From Fontisphaera persica (GTDB lineage: Bacteria; Verrucomicrobiota; Verrucomicrobiia; Limisphaerales; Fontisphaeraceae), in the NCBI RefSeq assembly GCF_024832785.1, contig NZ_CP116615.1, positions 868,001 to 932,000 of the forward strand: DNA of 64,000 nucleotides. Direction: 5' to 3'. The stretch's first letter is position 1, and each line of letters begins with the position of its first letter. Below are positions 14,878 to 48,094 of the stretch, piece after piece. Both the position numbers and the translations under genes were made by a program. Under the pieces are notes generated by a model, which saw only the letters and a program-made list of their open reading frames with translations, was not told where the DNA came from and ran no database searches.

Positions 14878-15354
14878 TCAGGAACTGCGGGGCAGGGCCA
14901 CCTTGCCGGTGCGGGTCAATTCCTGCACCCCAAAAGTGCTCATCAGCGCGATGAACTTTTCCACCTTGCTTTCCCCGCCCGTAATCTCGATGGTCAACGA
15001 CTTGGGCTGCACATCCACAATTTTGGCGCGGAAAATGTCCGTGATTTGCATCACCTCCGACCGCGATTTGGCATCCACCTTGACCTTCACCAGCGCCAGC
15101 TCCCGGTCCACATATTCGCCGTCCCGGAAGTCAATCACTTCCAGCACATTAATCAGTTTATCCAGTTGCTTGATGATTTGCTCCAGCGTGGCGTCATCCC
15201 CGCGCGTAACGATGGTCATGCGCGAGATTTTGGGGTCCATGGTCGGGGCCACATTGAGGCTGTCAATGTTGTACCCGCGCCCGCTGAACAAACCCGCCAC
15301 CCGGGTGAGCACCCCAAACTTGTTTTCCACCAGGACAGAGATGGTATGTCGCAT
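14878..15354 (-). CDS. ilvH: Acetolactate synthase small (regulatory) subunit
   Basis: Regulatory subunit of acetohydroxyacid synthase, first common step of valine, leucine and isoleucine synthesis. The 158-residue length is normal. An N-terminal ACT domain, HTISVLVENKFGVLTRVAGLFSGRGYNIDSL, carries the valine-binding Gly-rich loop; the C-terminal ALS_ss domain contains RELALVKVKV, FRAKIVDV and LTIEITG. The catalytic subunit gene (ilvB) is not adjacent. The gene is preceded on the same strand by a Leu/Val-rich leader peptide and a terminator hairpin, so attenuation by branched-chain aminoacyl-tRNA is proposed. It lacks an obvious Shine-Dalgarno sequence. Confidence 0.93.
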   Translation of the reverse strand: MRHTISVLVENKFGVLTRVAGLFSGRGYNIDSLNVAPTMDPKISRMTIVTRGDDATLEQIIKQLDKLINVLEVIDFRDGEYVDRELALVKVKVDAKSRSEVMQITDIFRAKIVDVQPKSLTIEITGGESKVEKFIALMSTFGVQELTRTGKVALPRSS

Positions 15355-15440
15355 AATAATTTAGTCGCGTGGTTGATTGTGACTGCGGTTCATTGTCATC
15401 CGGTTTGCCGGCCGAGGGTGGCTTGCGTGGCGGCCTGAAA

Positions 15441-15474
15441 ATCAAAAACCCGCGTCTCTCCTGGAGACCGCGGG
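15441..15474 (-). terminator. Rho-independent terminator / attenuator upstream of ilvH
   Basis: On the minus strand a stem of CCCGCG with CGCGGG (15469-15474 and 15449-15454), extended inward by GAGA/TCTC with one bulged base, is followed at once by five T (15444-15448) and then GATTTT. It lies between the leader peptide and ilvH. It could end ileS transcription, but its place just after a branched-chain leader peptide suggests an attenuator. CGCGG at 15507-15511 can pair with CCGCG of the terminator 5' arm (15469-15473), an alternative antiterminator pairing. Confidence 0.75.
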
Positions 15475-15511
15475 CGGCCAAGAGGCAAGCACACCAAAGC
15501 TCCGGGCCGCG

Positions 15512-15568
15512 TCAGTCGTTGCCGACTACGCCTACCAGCACCCACAGCTTGTGTGTCTCTGCCAACAT
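15512..15568 (-). CDS. Putative branched-chain leader peptide for ilvH attenuation
   Basis: An 18-codon frame reads MLAETHKLWVLVGVVGND and stops at TGA 15512-15514. Seven of the eighteen codons are Leu or Val, with six in the ten-codon run LWVLVGVVGN. A perfect hairpin AGTCG-GCAA-CGACT (15514-15527) covers its final codons, and the terminator begins about 38 bases further on. This is the layout of enterobacterial ilv leader peptides, whose translation speed reports charged tRNA(Val/Leu). No strong ribosome-binding site precedes the ATG; an in-frame TTG three codons upstream is an alternative start. Confidence 0.6.
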   Translation of the reverse strand: MLAETHKLWVLVGVVGND

Positions 15569-15696
15569 TCGGCGCAAACCATAGCGGCCTCTCTGCCGCC
15601 GGTCAAATAAATTCACCCGAATTTTCGCCTGGCTGGCGTGCCCCGCCTGACGCCCGCAACCTGCGGAAAGCCATCCTCTCACCCACCGCTCCCGGC

Positions 15697-18501
15697 CTAA
15701 ATGGCTGCCAGACAACGGCGGCACAAGGTGGGATGCTCCGCATGGCTTCCCACATCCGTTTCCCAATGCCAGCAGCGTTCGCATTTCTCCCCTGCGGCTT
15801 TGGCCACCACGATTGCCAGTTGCTCCCCTTGCTTGAGATGCAGTTGCGAGACGTTCAACAGCTCCCGCAAATCCTCCTGCAACGACGCCATGAGCGCGTA
15901 ATCTTCACGGCTCAATGTCAAGGTCGCCTGGGCCTCGAGGGCTTTGCCAATCAACTTGGCCTGACGCGCTTTTTCCAGCTCGGCCAGGGCGCTTTCCCGC
16001 ACTTCCAACATCCGTCGCCACAAGGCGCGCTGGTCTTCCGGCAGGGGAACTCCCTGCGCCTGCCACTGGCTCAGGTGCACCGATTCCGTCGCCCGGCCCG
16101 GGAGATGCTCCCATGCCTCATCCGCGGTGAACACTAGGATGGGCGAAAGCATCTGGCTCAGGCTGGTGACCAGCCGGTGCAGCGTGGTTTGAGTGCTCCG
16201 CCGCCGCGGGCTGTTGGCCGGATCGGTGTACAACCGATCTTTGACCAGATCATGATAAATGGCCGAGAGCTGCACTGCGGCAAACTGGCTCAACCTTTGA
16301 TAAACCGTGTGGAATTCATAGGCCTCATAAGCTGCCATGACTTCCTGCTCCACCGTGGCCAGTTCATTCAGTATCCAGCGGTCCAGCCCGGTTAGTTGCT
16401 CCGTCGGCACTCCATGTTGTGCCGGGTCATAATCGTAAAGGTTGGAAAGCTGATAGCGCAGGGCATTGCGGATGACCCGGTACGTCTCGCCCACTTTGCG
16501 GATGCGCTCGTCGCTGACCACGATGTCATTTCGATAATCCTGGGAGGAGACCCACAGACGCACCACGTCCGCGCCGTGATCTTTGATGTACTGCTCCGAG
16601 GTCTGCGGCTTGAGGTAGCCCCCTTGGCCCTGCTTGCTCTTGGAAATTTTCTCGCGATCCGCATCCACCATGAACCCGTGCGTCAGCACGGTTTTGAAGG
16701 GCGCCGCCCCGTGGGCTGCCAGGGAAAGCAACAGCGAGGATTGGAACCATCCACGATGTTGATCCGAACCTTCCAGATAAACATCGGCCTGCCAGTCTTC
16801 CGCCGCCCCGTCCGCCTTGCCGTGGCGCAGTTCCGGGCGCCGCATCAATACCGCCCGCGAGGAGGAGCCGGAATCAATCCACACGTCCAGCGTGTCCATG
16901 GATTTGGTGGCGGCCTCCGGCCCGTTCCAATCCTCCGGGCGCAATAGTTTCCACAGCTCTTCGGCCTTCGTCTCAAACCAGACCTGGCTGCCGTGCTTTT
17001 CAATCAACCGGGCGGCCGCCCGCACAATGCGGGCATCCAGAATCGGCCGGCCGTCCGCATCGTAAAAAGCCGGCAACGGCACACCCCACGCCCGCTGCCG
17101 CGAAATGCACCAATCCGGGCGTGCCTCCACGGCGCCTTTGATGCGATTGACCCCCCAGGCGGGCACCCATTGCACCCGGTCAATTTCGGCGAGGGCGCGC
17201 TGCCGGAAACCCTGATGGTCCACCCGGATGAACCATTGGTCCATGGCGCGGAAAATAATCGGCGTTTTGCTGCGCCAGCAGTGCGGATAGCTGTGATGAT
17301 AGTTCTCCTGGTGCAGCAGTAATTTACGCGCACGCAATTCGTGGAGCACCGCCTCATTGGCATCGCTCTTGCCGTGTTTTTCCAAAATGGATTTGCCCAC
17401 CATGGCCGCCGGCATTTGCTGCTCCACCGGCAAATCTGCGGTATGGGCAAAACAACCCTCATCATTCACGGGCGAGTAAATCGGCAGCCCCTCCCGCAAG
17501 CCCAGCAGGTAGTCCTCCATGCCATGCCCGGGCGCGATGTGCACAAAACCCGTGCCCGTCTGGTTGTCCACAAACTCATCCCCCGCATAGAGCCGGCCGG
17601 TGCGCTGGCAGAATGGATGCTGGTACACCAGCTCTTTCAAATGCTCCGGATACAGCGTGCGGATAATCTGATAATTCTCCCATTGGCACTTTTCCGCCAC
17701 CGTCCCCACCAGCATCGTTTCCAGGATGTACAGCTCCGCCTCCACTTGCACCACCGAATAGGTGAAGTTGGAATTGTAGGCCACCGCCAGATTGGCCGGC
17801 AGGGTCCAGGGCGTCGTGGTCCAAATCAGCAGGAAATTGCCCGGATGATTCACCAGCGGGAACTTTACATAAATGCTGGGGCTGAGATGGTCCTGGTATT
17901 CCACTTCCGCTTCCGCCAGCGCCGTCCGGCAGGGAATGCTCCAGTACACCGGTTTCTTCCCGCGGTAGATAAACCCTTGTTCCACCAAATCCGCAAACAA
18001 CCGCAATTCATCGGCCTCGTATTCTTTGTTTAATGTCAGATAAGGATTTTCCCAATCGCCCAGCACGCCCAGCCGTTTGAACTGCTGCCGCTGAATTTGA
18101 ATGTACTTGCGCGCATAAGCATCACATTCCCGCCGGATGGCGGCGGGGTCTGTGGCGGCATTCCCGGCCTTGCGCAGCTCTTGGATGACCTTGAACTCAA
18201 TGGGCAGCCCGTGACAATCCCACCCCGGCACATAGGGCGCGCAAAAACCCCGCAGGGATTTGTACCGGATGAGAATGTCCTTGAGCGTCTTGTTGAGTGC
18301 CGTGCCAATGTGCACATCGCCGTTGGCAAAAGGGGGGCCATCGTGGAGCACAAACTTGGGCGCGCCTGCGCGGGCCGCCATGATTTGCTCATACAGCCGC
18401 GCCTTTTCCCATTGCTCCAACCGCTCCGGTTCGCGGCTGACCAGGTCGGCTTTCATGGGGAAGTCCGTCCTGGGCAGGTTCAATGTCGTCTTATAGTCCA
18501 T
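15697..18501 (-). CDS. ileS: Isoleucyl-tRNA synthetase
   Basis: Class Ia synthetase of 934 residues that charges tRNA(Ile). The HIGH motif appears as HIGT (about 64-67) and the KMSKS loop as KISKS (about 617-621). The CP1 editing domain lies between them with WTTTPWTLPANLAVA. The C-terminus has a zinc-binding cluster, C-x2-C ... C-x2-C in EKCERCWHWE and LCRRCLAAI, typical of bacterial IleRS. ATG 18501 is chosen because GGGAAGG lies about seven bases upstream and the protein then begins MDYKTTLNLPRTDFPMKA as in the family; an in-frame ATG at 18588 would only add an unrelated extension. Confidence 0.97.
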   Translation of the reverse strand: MDYKTTLNLPRTDFPMKADLVSREPERLEQWEKARLYEQIMAARAGAPKFVLHDGPPFANGDVHIGTALNKTLKDILIRYKSLRGFCAPYVPGWDCHGLPIEFKVIQELRKAGNAATDPAAIRRECDAYARKYIQIQRQQFKRLGVLGDWENPYLTLNKEYEADELRLFADLVEQGFIYRGKKPVYWSIPCRTALAEAEVEYQDHLSPSIYVKFPLVNHPGNFLLIWTTTPWTLPANLAVAYNSNFTYSVVQVEAELYILETMLVGTVAEKCQWENYQIIRTLYPEHLKELVYQHPFCQRTGRLYAGDEFVDNQTGTGFVHIAPGHGMEDYLLGLREGLPIYSPVNDEGCFAHTADLPVEQQMPAAMVGKSILEKHGKSDANEAVLHELRARKLLLHQENYHHSYPHCWRSKTPIIFRAMDQWFIRVDHQGFRQRALAEIDRVQWVPAWGVNRIKGAVEARPDWCISRQRAWGVPLPAFYDADGRPILDARIVRAAARLIEKHGSQVWFETKAEELWKLLRPEDWNGPEAATKSMDTLDVWIDSGSSSRAVLMRRPELRHGKADGAAEDWQADVYLEGSDQHRGWFQSSLLLSLAAHGAAPFKTVLTHGFMVDADREKISKSKQGQGGYLKPQTSEQYIKDHGADVVRLWVSSQDYRNDIVVSDERIRKVGETYRVIRNALRYQLSNLYDYDPAQHGVPTEQLTGLDRWILNELATVEQEVMAAYEAYEFHTVYQRLSQFAAVQLSAIYHDLVKDRLYTDPANSPRRRSTQTTLHRLVTSLSQMLSPILVFTADEAWEHLPGRATESVHLSQWQAQGVPLPEDQRALWRRMLEVRESALAELEKARQAKLIGKALEAQATLTLSREDYALMASLQEDLRELLNVSQLHLKQGEQLAIVVAKAAGEKCERCWHWETDVGSHAEHPTLCRRCLAAI

Positions 18502-18729
18502 CTTGCATCCTTCCCACAATCGGGCCGCGACGCTACCACTGGCGGCACGAAAACTCAAAGGGTAAATTATCCGCCGGGTCATGGCCATCCTTGCCAGAAG
18601 GCATCGGCCTCCCTGGCAGGCGGGCCTAGTCCCGCTCGATCGGCTGGAAATAATGTTCCTGCGGCCATTGGGCCGCCCTGCCTCAGAGGGAGGGAGGCTC
18701 GTAGCCGGCGGGTGGACGTGGATGATGCC

Positions 18730-46165: not shown

Positions 46166-48094
46166 CTAGGCGCGGGCATCGGACGGGGCCGGGGCGGGTT
46201 TGGTTATGACGGCGGCAGTGGAGGCGCTGGCGGCGGGCTGGTCTTTCATCATGGCATTCCAGACGATGAGACCGAGGTTGAAGGCGGCGTAGGCAAAGAG
46301 GGCGAGTGAGGCTTTGTCCATGAAACCGTAGGAGTGGAGGCCGACGCCGAGCATGTTGACGCCGAACCAGGACCAGGCGGTGACGACGTTGCCGAAGATG
46401 GCGGCATTCATGAGGGCGTGTTCGCTCCAGAGTTTGCTCCAGCGGGCGTGGAGGTAGATGGCGCACCAGAGCACGATGAGCAGGGCGCCGTTTTCCTTGG
46501 GGTCCCAGCCCCAGAAGCGGCCCCAGGATTGGTCGGCCCAGATGCCGCCGAGGACGGTGCCGACAAAGCTAAAGAGGGTGGCAAAACACAAGACGCCATA
46601 AACCATGCGGGAGAGGGCCTGGCCGATGGGAGTGGTGCCGACGGCGCCGGGGAGGCTTTGATGCAGGCGGCCGGACCAGCGGAGGAAGACGTAAAGGGTG
46701 GCGAGGAGGCCGGCGATGAACATGGCGGAGTAGCCGAGGGTCACGGTGACGACATGGGTGGCGAGCCAGAAATTGCTGTCGAGGACGGCGCGCATCATTT
46801 CCATGGTATCGCCGCTGAGGGAGAGGTTGTGGGCGATGACGAGGGAGCCAAAGCCGGTGCAGGCGGCGGCGATATTGCCGATGCCGAGGCGGTAAAAGCG
46901 TTCGAGGAGAAGGCCGAGGACCACGGCCGCCCAGCCGATGAAGATGGCTGAGGAATAGAGATTGGTGACAGGGGGGCGGCCTTCGAGGGCCATGCGGTAG
47001 ATGAGGCAGAGGGTGTGGACCGCGCCGCCGAGGGCGATTAGGACGTAAGCGGATTTGCGGAAGGTTTCGGACCAGGAGGGGAGGGTGCCCATGGCCACGA
47101 GGCCGGCCAAGGAAAGGAGGAGGGCGCCGACATAAAGGACGAGGGCATGGTAGAAGCCCTGGAAGGCCTGATACATGAATTCCCAACGGGCCTTGTTGAC
47201 TTCGCGCGTCAAGCCGTGGGCGGTGAGCCATTGGCGGTAATCCGCCACGGCCTGGTTAAAGTCGTTGGGTTGGGCGTTTTGCCAGGCGGTGGCGATGCGG
47301 CCGTAGGCGAGCACGGCGGGATGCAGCTCCTGAGAGCTGAGGCTGCGCATGAGGCTCACGCCGATGTTGACCCAGTCTTCCCGGTTGGTCTGGAGGTTGG
47401 AGGGGGGGATAATCAAGGGGTAGGCATTACGGGACATGCGCTCGTAACGTTGGGCCAGTTGCATGAGGCGGTCGAGGGACTGCTGGTCGAATGCCTTGCC
47501 TTCACGGCGGGCATGGAAGGCGGCAATGCCGCCGGGCAGGATTTTTTGGAAGTCCTGGAGTTCGGCAAGGTAGTTGGTGGTGCCTTCGGGCATGAGGCTC
47601 CATTTGAGGCGCTGATAAAGGGCGAGGGCGTTGTAGAGGCGCCACATGGCGCGCTGAAAGGCGGTGCGCTGGGCATTTTCGATTTGGTTGATTTGGGCGG
47701 CCTGGCGCTCGATTTCATCGAGGGCGGGTTGGAGGTCGTTGAAGGAAAAGTATTTTTCGTTTTCCGGGAGCTTCAAGAGGCTCAGGACTTCGCCATTATC
47801 AATGCGAAAGATTTTGCGGCTGTCCGCCTGCTGAGGCTGGGTGAAGACTTCGAGGAGCCATTCGGTAGCGGGCATGGCGCCGCGTCCGGGGACATACACG
47901 GTCTGGCGGGTGCGGATTTGGAGGAGAGAATTGCGGGCCACCGAGTCCATGGGTTGCACGCGGCCGTTGGAGAGAACGGGGAGGCGGCCAAATTCGGACA
48001 GCGCGAAGCCGTTGGGCTTGGGCATGGGGCGCAGGCCGGAGAGGACGTAGAGGAGGCCGAGACTCAGCAAAATCCAGGGGAGATGGCGTTTCAT
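46166..48094 (-). CDS. ccsA: Cytochrome c biogenesis protein CcsA/ResC
   Basis: Haem-handling membrane protein of system II cytochrome c maturation, 642 residues. After one N-terminal transmembrane segment there is a large periplasmic region (about 30-330) seen in long CcsA variants of Bacteroidetes and Verrucomicrobia, then the CcsA core with the tryptophan-rich WWD signature GGIWADQSWGRFWGWDPKENGAL and conserved His residues in the flanking helices (SLAFA-type HNLSLSG, ATHVVTVTLGYSAM, HSYGF). It overlaps resB by 4 bases (ATGA). Together they transport and ligate haem to apocytochromes outside the membrane. Confidence 0.93.
   Translation of the reverse strand: MKRHLPWILLSLGLLYVLSGLRPMPKPNGFALSEFGRLPVLSNGRVQPMDSVARNSLLQIRTRQTVYVPGRGAMPATEWLLEVFTQPQQADSRKIFRIDNGEVLSLLKLPENEKYFSFNDLQPALDEIERQAAQINQIENAQRTAFQRAMWRLYNALALYQRLKWSLMPEGTTNYLAELQDFQKILPGGIAAFHARREGKAFDQQSLDRLMQLAQRYERMSRNAYPLIIPPSNLQTNREDWVNIGVSLMRSLSSQELHPAVLAYGRIATAWQNAQPNDFNQAVADYRQWLTAHGLTREVNKARWEFMYQAFQGFYHALVLYVGALLLSLAGLVAMGTLPSWSETFRKSAYVLIALGGAVHTLCLIYRMALEGRPPVTNLYSSAIFIGWAAVVLGLLLERFYRLGIGNIAAACTGFGSLVIAHNLSLSGDTMEMMRAVLDSNFWLATHVVTVTLGYSAMFIAGLLATLYVFLRWSGRLHQSLPGAVGTTPIGQALSRMVYGVLCFATLFSFVGTVLGGIWADQSWGRFWGWDPKENGALLIVLWCAIYLHARWSKLWSEHALMNAAIFGNVVTAWSWFGVNMLGVGLHSYGFMDKASLALFAYAAFNLGLIVWNAMMKDQPAASASTAAVITKPAPAPSDARA

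Follow-up and report, generated by a model that had tools for sequence, protein, structure and literature searches.

Attenuators in front of ilvGMEDA, ilvBN and leu of Escherichia coli carry control codons for the product amino acids and form competing pairings (1:2, 2:3 and 3:4), as is predicted for the leader described here; they differ from it in having a ribosome-binding site before the leader, in the mixed branched-chain codons of the ilv leaders and in their association with operons. The ilvBNC operon of Corynebacterium glutamicum is preceded by a 15-residue leader (IlvL) with a VVV motif, its transcription start and the leader start codon are one nucleotide apart, and terminator and antiterminator overlap; valine-dependent expression is lost once the three Val are changed (PMC11857589). 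In these points it resembles what is predicted for the locus presented here, from which it differs in phylum, in sequences and hairpins, and in being a single operon, whereas ilvB, ilvH and leuA lie apart here, each with a leader of its own. For ilvB1NC of Mycobacterium tuberculosis, a similar short LVVI frame with terminator and antiterminator is described and a short terminated transcript was seen by end sequencing, but the leader is 166 nt long and the genes form an operon (PMC13236596). The 5′ end of the trpL attenuator RNA of Sinorhizobium meliloti is the ATG of the leader frame, which makes it another likely parallel; it differs in concerning tryptophan, in its reported trans-acting roles and in belonging to an alphaproteobacterium (PMC7298713). 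The ilvB-OMG and Leptospira ilvB motifs likewise contain short branched-chain-rich frames and are likely attenuators, all located before ilvB; the ilvB-OMG set comes from various phyla, which are not named in section 14 of PMC10272879. The RNA described here stands before ilvH and matched no Rfam family, although Rfam 15 may not include these motifs. Candidate ilvB leaders are also described in Actinobacteria (PMC1262725). No described case of an attenuator or a leaderless leader peptide in Verrucomicrobia or Limisphaera was found in the literature searched, which covers little of the subscription literature, so that an earlier prediction is possible; the main texts of PMC2965389 and PMC11109978 contain no mention of the phylum name, Opitutus/Opitut or Akkermansia. 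The kind of regulation is already known from ilvBNC of Corynebacterium; the lineage, the RNA without Rfam match and the dispersed layout over three genes appear to be new.

The window, i.e. the whole stretch of 64,000 nucleotides of Fontisphaera persica analysed here, contains ilvH downstream of ileS on the minus strand (Table 1). From the letters alone, the initial annotation had proposed a branched-chain amino acid attenuator in front of ilvH, and the 18-codon frame as well as the terminator stem with its T-run were found exactly where it had placed them. A hairpin over the last codons of the frame exists as well; the extent first given (15514-15527) was too short, and the actual 1:2 hairpin reaches from 15531 to 15509, with 9 pairs, one bulged base and the loop GCAA.

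Table 1. Features of the ilvH locus, numbered by position in the window; RNA elements and promoter are predictions.
Feature	Position	Strand	Remarks
ilvH	14878..15354	-	acetolactate synthase small (regulatory) subunit, 158 aa; NF008864 E 2.5e-69, TIGR00119 E 1.5e-61, both above cut-off
ileS	15697..18588	-	neighbour upstream of ilvH, same strand; TIGR00392 E 2.4e-264, above cut-off
-35 box TTGACC	15601..15606	-	from sequence
-10 box TATGGT	15578..15583	-	17-nt spacer
Predicted transcription start	~15571	-	from standard promoter spacing
Leader frame MLAETHKLWVLVGVVGND + TGA	15512..15568	-	18 codons; start position and Val run conserved
Val codons of the leader frame	15541-15539, 15535-15533, 15529-15527, 15526-15524	-
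1:2 hairpin, Val codons with stop-codon region (GCGTAGTCG / CGACTGACGC)	15509..15531	-	from folding
Helix A (2:3), strand 2, GCGGCC	15505..15510	-
Helix A, strand 3, GGCCGC	15474..15479	-	one base (15474) in common with terminator
Helix B (direct antiterminator candidate), strand 2, GACGCGG	15507..15513	-	partner CCGC(G)GTC at 15473-15466
Helix B, strand 3	15466..15473	-	inside 5′ arm of terminator
Terminator hairpin CCCGCGGTCTCCAGGAGAGACGCGGG	15449..15474	-	predicted from sequence
U-tract TTTTTGATTTT	15438..15448	-

The ilvH leader is best read as a ribosome-mediated transcription attenuator sensing charged valyl-tRNA, to which we assign a probability of about 0.88 on the basis of sequence comparison. 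Transcription would start approximately 3 nt upstream of the leader ATG; the bare 5′ end would then be loaded with a ribosome (leaderless initiation) that follows the RNA polymerase. With ample valine, it would reach the stop codon and cover the strand whose potential pairing partner lies immediately ahead of and within the terminator, so that the terminator would form and ilvH would not be transcribed. When valyl-tRNA is short, the ribosome would wait in the Val run, where the 1:2 hairpin could not form; strand 2 (GACGCGGCC) would then be free to pair with strand 3, which would hinder the terminator and allow ilvH to be made. In an untranslated leader, 1:2 would form and termination would be the default. 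Sequence comparison supports the promoter, the place where the frame starts, the Val run, the 1:2 hairpin, helix A and the terminator; the transcription start, translation of the frame, a lowering of termination by helix A or B and the response to valine are inferred.

The comparison with relatives started from 196 genomes (the own genome and relatives, nearly all labelled Limisphaerales), of which 182 contain ilvH. Upstream regions were taken from the 150 best-scoring of these 182 genomes, the own one included and the 32 lower-scoring ones left out, and from 80 named loci with titles referring to Verrucomicrobia subdivision 3, Limisphaerales, Pedosphaera and a few other labels; after removal of repeats, 182 distinct ilvH upstream regions were obtained. 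They were scanned, blind to amino acids, for three features: a start codon 34–42 nt downstream of the first T in TTGAC, a frame length of 8–30 codons, and a terminator-like hairpin. The scan found 53 regions, 52 of them with at least 3 Val codons; L199 (2 Val, hairpin of -2.7 kcal/mol) was dropped as false, and L100, which had been overlooked by the terminator finder, was added by hand. The core of the initial reading held: frame, control codons and terminator occur as a conserved set in 53 of the 182 distinct regions, corresponding to 49 of 150 genomes (Limisphaerales, subdivision 3), with 3 to 8 Val per leader and positives in 23 families of the order (hand matching to family labels). No such leader was seen before ilvH in the other 101 genomes. 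Since model R1 also matches L052/L157, L161/L068, L201, L208, L212 and L214, none of which was counted, 53 may be an undercount. Promoter and terminator-like remnants without a Val-rich frame were seen by eye before ilvH in L027 and L081, and are likely decayed leaders.

Folded alone, the leader region was only modestly more stable than shuffled sequences (145-nt fold, z -2.0), so that the comparison with relatives had to decide. The 1:2 hairpin was on average more stable in 52 ilvH members than in dinucleotide shuffles (-10.9 vs -6.3 kcal/mol). The initial annotation had proposed to look in relatives for conserved control codons with compensatory changes in the stems; Val was indeed kept, but over the 34 leaders of alignment A1 (all ilvH leaders known when it was made) the 1:2 hairpin showed no excess over column shuffles, neither in pairing (76.8 vs 76.9%) nor in double changes (0 vs 2.1). 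By eye, 1:2 reads as a compensated stem in L108 and similar single members. The terminator hairpin was paired in 92.9% of cells over the same 34 members.

Two pairings of strand 2 could serve as antiterminator. Helix A was present in 48 of 52 ilvH members compared to 53% of shuffles, in many relatives as GCGRCCTG/CAGGTCGC and in the window as GCGGCC/GGCCGC. On the alignment, 88.3% of its cells pair, compared to 86.0% in column shuffles (3 of 500). The stretch containing it is hardly more stable than shuffles (-11.5 vs -10.9 kcal/mol), it overlaps the terminator by a single base, and the two mostly coexist in the minimum-energy fold. Helix B, which can form in the window with 7 pairs and one bulge, includes the pairing of CGCGG (15511-15507) with CCGCG (15473-15469) that had been proposed to block the terminator. 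The two strands are complementary as claimed, but as an antiterminator the pairing of strand 2 with the terminator arm was not above chance (38 of 52 members vs 69% of shuffles). A GCG:CGC pairing can form in 33–34 of the 34 aligned members, in columns that hardly vary. The divergent members L003, L008, L036 and L057 show mainly the direct (helix B) kind by eye.

With a stalled ribosome, the minimum-energy fold kept the terminator in 52 of 52 ilvH members; as it was also kept in 82 of 83 members of a corresponding ilvB set, this test is not decisive. In ilvH, the best fold lacking the terminator lies 10.9 kcal/mol above the overall best fold when the ribosome is stalled and 13.1 above it when the ribosome occupies the stop codon; the corresponding values in ilvB are 8.6 and 20.2, so that moving the ribosome has a large calculated effect in ilvB and a small one in ilvH. 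By hand arithmetic that takes from PMC13236596 a 26-nt footprint centred on the codon, strand 2 of helix A would lie entirely under a ribosome on the stop codon and would be left free by one waiting at the window Val codons -4 to -9. An antiterminator switch in ilvH, by helix A or helix B, is plausible from these comparisons, and either helix would have to lower termination for the valine response to arise.

Leaders of the same design are found before two further genes of the same genome. The only ilvB above the family cut-off (C1:1660692-1662491, minus strand) lies approximately 780 kb from ilvH and is preceded by a promoter (TTGACG-17-TATTTT), the leader MSMLGQVHLLVVAVIGGAVCACRS and then a terminator. 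In this region (L290, G000:C1, just upstream of ilvB), a mini-frame ATG TTG GTA TGA overlaps the start of the ilvB leader (ATGA), for which reason the leader start may depend on re-initiation. Across relatives, a Val-rich leader with 3–11 Val was detected before ilvB in 83 of 90 genomes, again by a scan blind to amino acids; six of the seven missed regions show a leader by eye, L359 does not. Many of the ilvB peptides have a conserved end (A-V/A-G-x-C-R), because GCCGTGGGTGCTTGTCGA can pair with TCGACAAG..ACCCACGGC, the ACCCACGGC part being the terminator arm. In 83 of 83 members, the last codons form pairs with five or more bases of the arm, compared to 44% of shuffles. In alignment A2 (68 of the 83 leaders; 15 were omitted to limit redundancy), 28 cells were changed on both sides, compared to 10.8 ± 2.6 in shuffles, none of 500 of which reached 28. 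Covariation thus supports an ilvB antiterminator that would exclude the terminator.

A Leu-rich leader (4–9 Leu, 0–3 Val) was found before leuA in 26 of 30 loci with a scan that was likewise blind to amino acids, and in 18 of 20 further regions, including that of the own genome (MSRNLNLRLANALLLLCGSVAGGF). One of these 18 duplicates a locus from the first count; both regions without leader precede weaker, second homologues. As to gene identity, L398 and L429–L431 match 2-isopropylmalate synthase families (the last three above the TIGR00973 cut-off), and the own leuA, of which the first 91 residues were scanned, has its best match in 2-isopropylmalate synthase (E 9.5e-42). No leader was seen in the own genome before ilvC or two trpE homologues. 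Since the ilvB and leuA of this genome have such leaders too, with Val and Leu respectively, ilvH would be one of three unlinked targets. Which control amino acid a leader carries depends on the gene (Leu before leuA, Val before ilvB and ilvH); this argues against an artefact of base composition. Among 74 genomes with both ilvH and ilvB upstream regions known, the scan detected both leaders in 24, only that of ilvB in 44, only that of ilvH in two and neither in four; the two genomes with an ilvH leader only both show an ilvB leader by eye.

These results bear on a reading in which the leader is translated and relevant, but acts via RNA stability, translation or Rho, with the terminator being constitutive. 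It is compatible with the ilvH antiterminator not exceeding chance, and with Streptomyces coelicolor, where an ilvB leader of similar kind did not respond to altered leader codons (PMC1262725). Against it stand the tracking of the gene product by the control amino acid and the covarying ilvB antiterminator that takes in the last codons of its leader, and we regard it as unlikely, though as the strongest competitor of attenuation.

A leaderless frame is suggested by the promoter in front of it. The -35 box reads TTGACC in 49, TTGACG in three and TTGACA in one of the 53 ilvH members (TTGAC was a search criterion), and the start codon is ATG in 46 and GTG in seven. In all 53 leaders, the distance between this codon and the first T in the -35 box is 36–41 nt, where the scan had permitted 34–42. 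A wide check, allowing starts 15–80 nt away in frames with at least 4 Val, placed the first start codon at 36–41 nt in 44 of 55 frames, and for ilvB at 34–42 nt in 77 of 89 frames. Given the usual promoter spacing, the ilvH leader mRNA should begin approximately 0–5 nt before the start codon at a predicted transcription start. The absence of a ribosome-binding site, listed as the weak point of the initial annotation, would therefore be normal for these leaders, which are predicted to be leaderless or nearly so. Its suggestion that readthrough from ileS feeds the attenuator is not needed either, since the leader has its own promoter directly in front. In 97 of 129 leader-free ilvH regions, a TTGAC-type promoter is located 46–68 nt before the start codon of ilvH itself, so that closeness to the promoter is particular to the leader. 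The short 5′ end predicted for such regions (L004, L005, L014, L026 and others) folds into a small stem-loop directly before the ilvH start, with a mean of -6.6 kcal/mol compared to -2.8 in base shuffles; the printed stems differ in sequence and share the same form, which suggests a separate element.

An RNA beginning with the ATG of its frame is what S. meliloti produces (PMC7298713), and the terminated leader RNA or its peptide might act in trans here in a manner comparable to rnTrpL and peTrpL of that organism. Such a role could coexist with attenuation; the first residues of the leaders vary by eye and nothing in the data points to a target, so that we give it a somewhat smaller chance than the non-attenuating, translated leader.

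The codon usage of the leaders bears on whether the short frame is accidental, with merely a promoter and a terminator being functional. A frame of such length alone is cheap and the fold has a z of only -2.0, but Val makes up 34.0% of codons in frame in the 53 ilvH leaders, compared to 1.9% and 1.4% in the other two frames (287 Val vs 67 ± 7 in 1000 base shuffles). A specificity scan, likewise blind to amino acids, over 1.32 million strand-bases (the window and the 80 loci) returned 27 hits: all 20 located directly before ilvH contain at least 4 Val, and all seven elsewhere at most 2. The scan is incomplete, with at least L154, L155 and L162 being overlooked, though model R1 finds them. An accidental frame is hence very improbable. 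Four recurring scan hits in the named loci (VTD..SLGG) were the end of another gene and its terminator. The second hit in the window (46356, plus strand; MAAFMRACSLQSLLQRAWR and a hairpin) falls within a cytochrome c assembly gene (46166-48094, minus strand) in antisense orientation and looks like chance.

Which amino acid the putative ilvH attenuator would sense can be read from the same codons. Counted back from the stop codon, positions -3, -4 and -5 hold Val in 42, 47 and 45 of 53 leaders, respectively. The Val codons vary chiefly at the third base; at codon -3, the third base is C in 21, A in 20, T in 8 and G in 4 leaders, the first base is G in 47 and the second T in 42 of 53. Codon -4 is GTC in 40 of 53 leaders, which fits its place in the 1:2 stem, and codons -3 and -5 use several Val codons. 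Leu and Ile occur on average 1.7 and 0.6 times per leader. In L002, from the same genus, W9, V10 and L11 are replaced by R, F and A, and V12, V14 and V15 are kept. Of the clustered Leu and Val codons initially regarded as control codons, those for Val were conserved, but Leu was rejected as control amino acid for ilvH, its codons lacking conservation over the 53 leaders. This combination identifies the ilvH leader as a probable valine sensor.

Beyond the order, the ilvH leader was not recovered. A search of 387 genomes of the phylum with model R1 gave matches (E up to 0.01) in 20, namely the own genome and 19 others whose matches are weak and all lie away from ilvH. Of these 19 matches, 13 were inspected and looked like terminators of other genes or intragenic stretches. 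None of 29 ilvH loci from other orders has a Val-rich leader by scan, L271 containing a Val-free short frame. Model R2 matched 18 of the 387 genomes at E up to 0.001, two of them Limisphaerales; in one genome of the order, a second match (L398) pointed to leuA. Of the 16 R2 loci in other orders, 15 were inspected (L395 was left out), and four lie before ilvB-like genes by eye. These four (L383, L384, L391 and L396, from other families) show branched-chain-rich stretches followed by a terminator; L383 reads as a 39-residue leader with LLVVVV, starting 36 nt from TTGACA. The remaining 11 resembled terminators in the neighbourhood of unrelated genes.

A T-box, riboswitch or other known RNA class would suit a site between ileS and a gene for branched-chain amino acids, but such an assignment is hardly credible, as Rfam 15 gave no match at gathering scores anywhere in the window and, among five loci searched at E up to 1 (L111, which is this locus, L023, L104, L290 and L319), solely a mir-708 match in L319 (3899-4022) that was taken as spurious at 35.4 bits compared to a gathering score of 71.

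A wider reading is held tentatively, at slightly less than even odds: leaderless attenuators would be dispersed across the order, one per unlinked gene and each tuned to what that gene helps to make (Val in the case of ilvB and ilvH, Leu in that of leuA). About one third of genomes would have a separate valine attenuator for IlvH, through which the ratio of regulatory to catalytic subunit could follow the valine supply, and the ilvH switch may consist in a GCG strand sliding from one to the other of two adjacent CGC sites rather than in a full exclusive hairpin.

The predicted ilvH attenuator would place classical translation-dependent attenuation in a phylum for which no described case was found in the literature searched, as part of an order-wide system with a built-in control, in that the control amino acid changes with the gene. 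Approximately 180 leaderless leader peptides are predicted (53 for ilvH, 83 for ilvB and 43 for leuA). Such leaders may be useful for asking how a ribosome that has to load on a bare 5′ end can keep up with RNA polymerase, and the prediction that follows for the cell is that its ilvH, ilvB and leuA genes would respond to different charged tRNAs.
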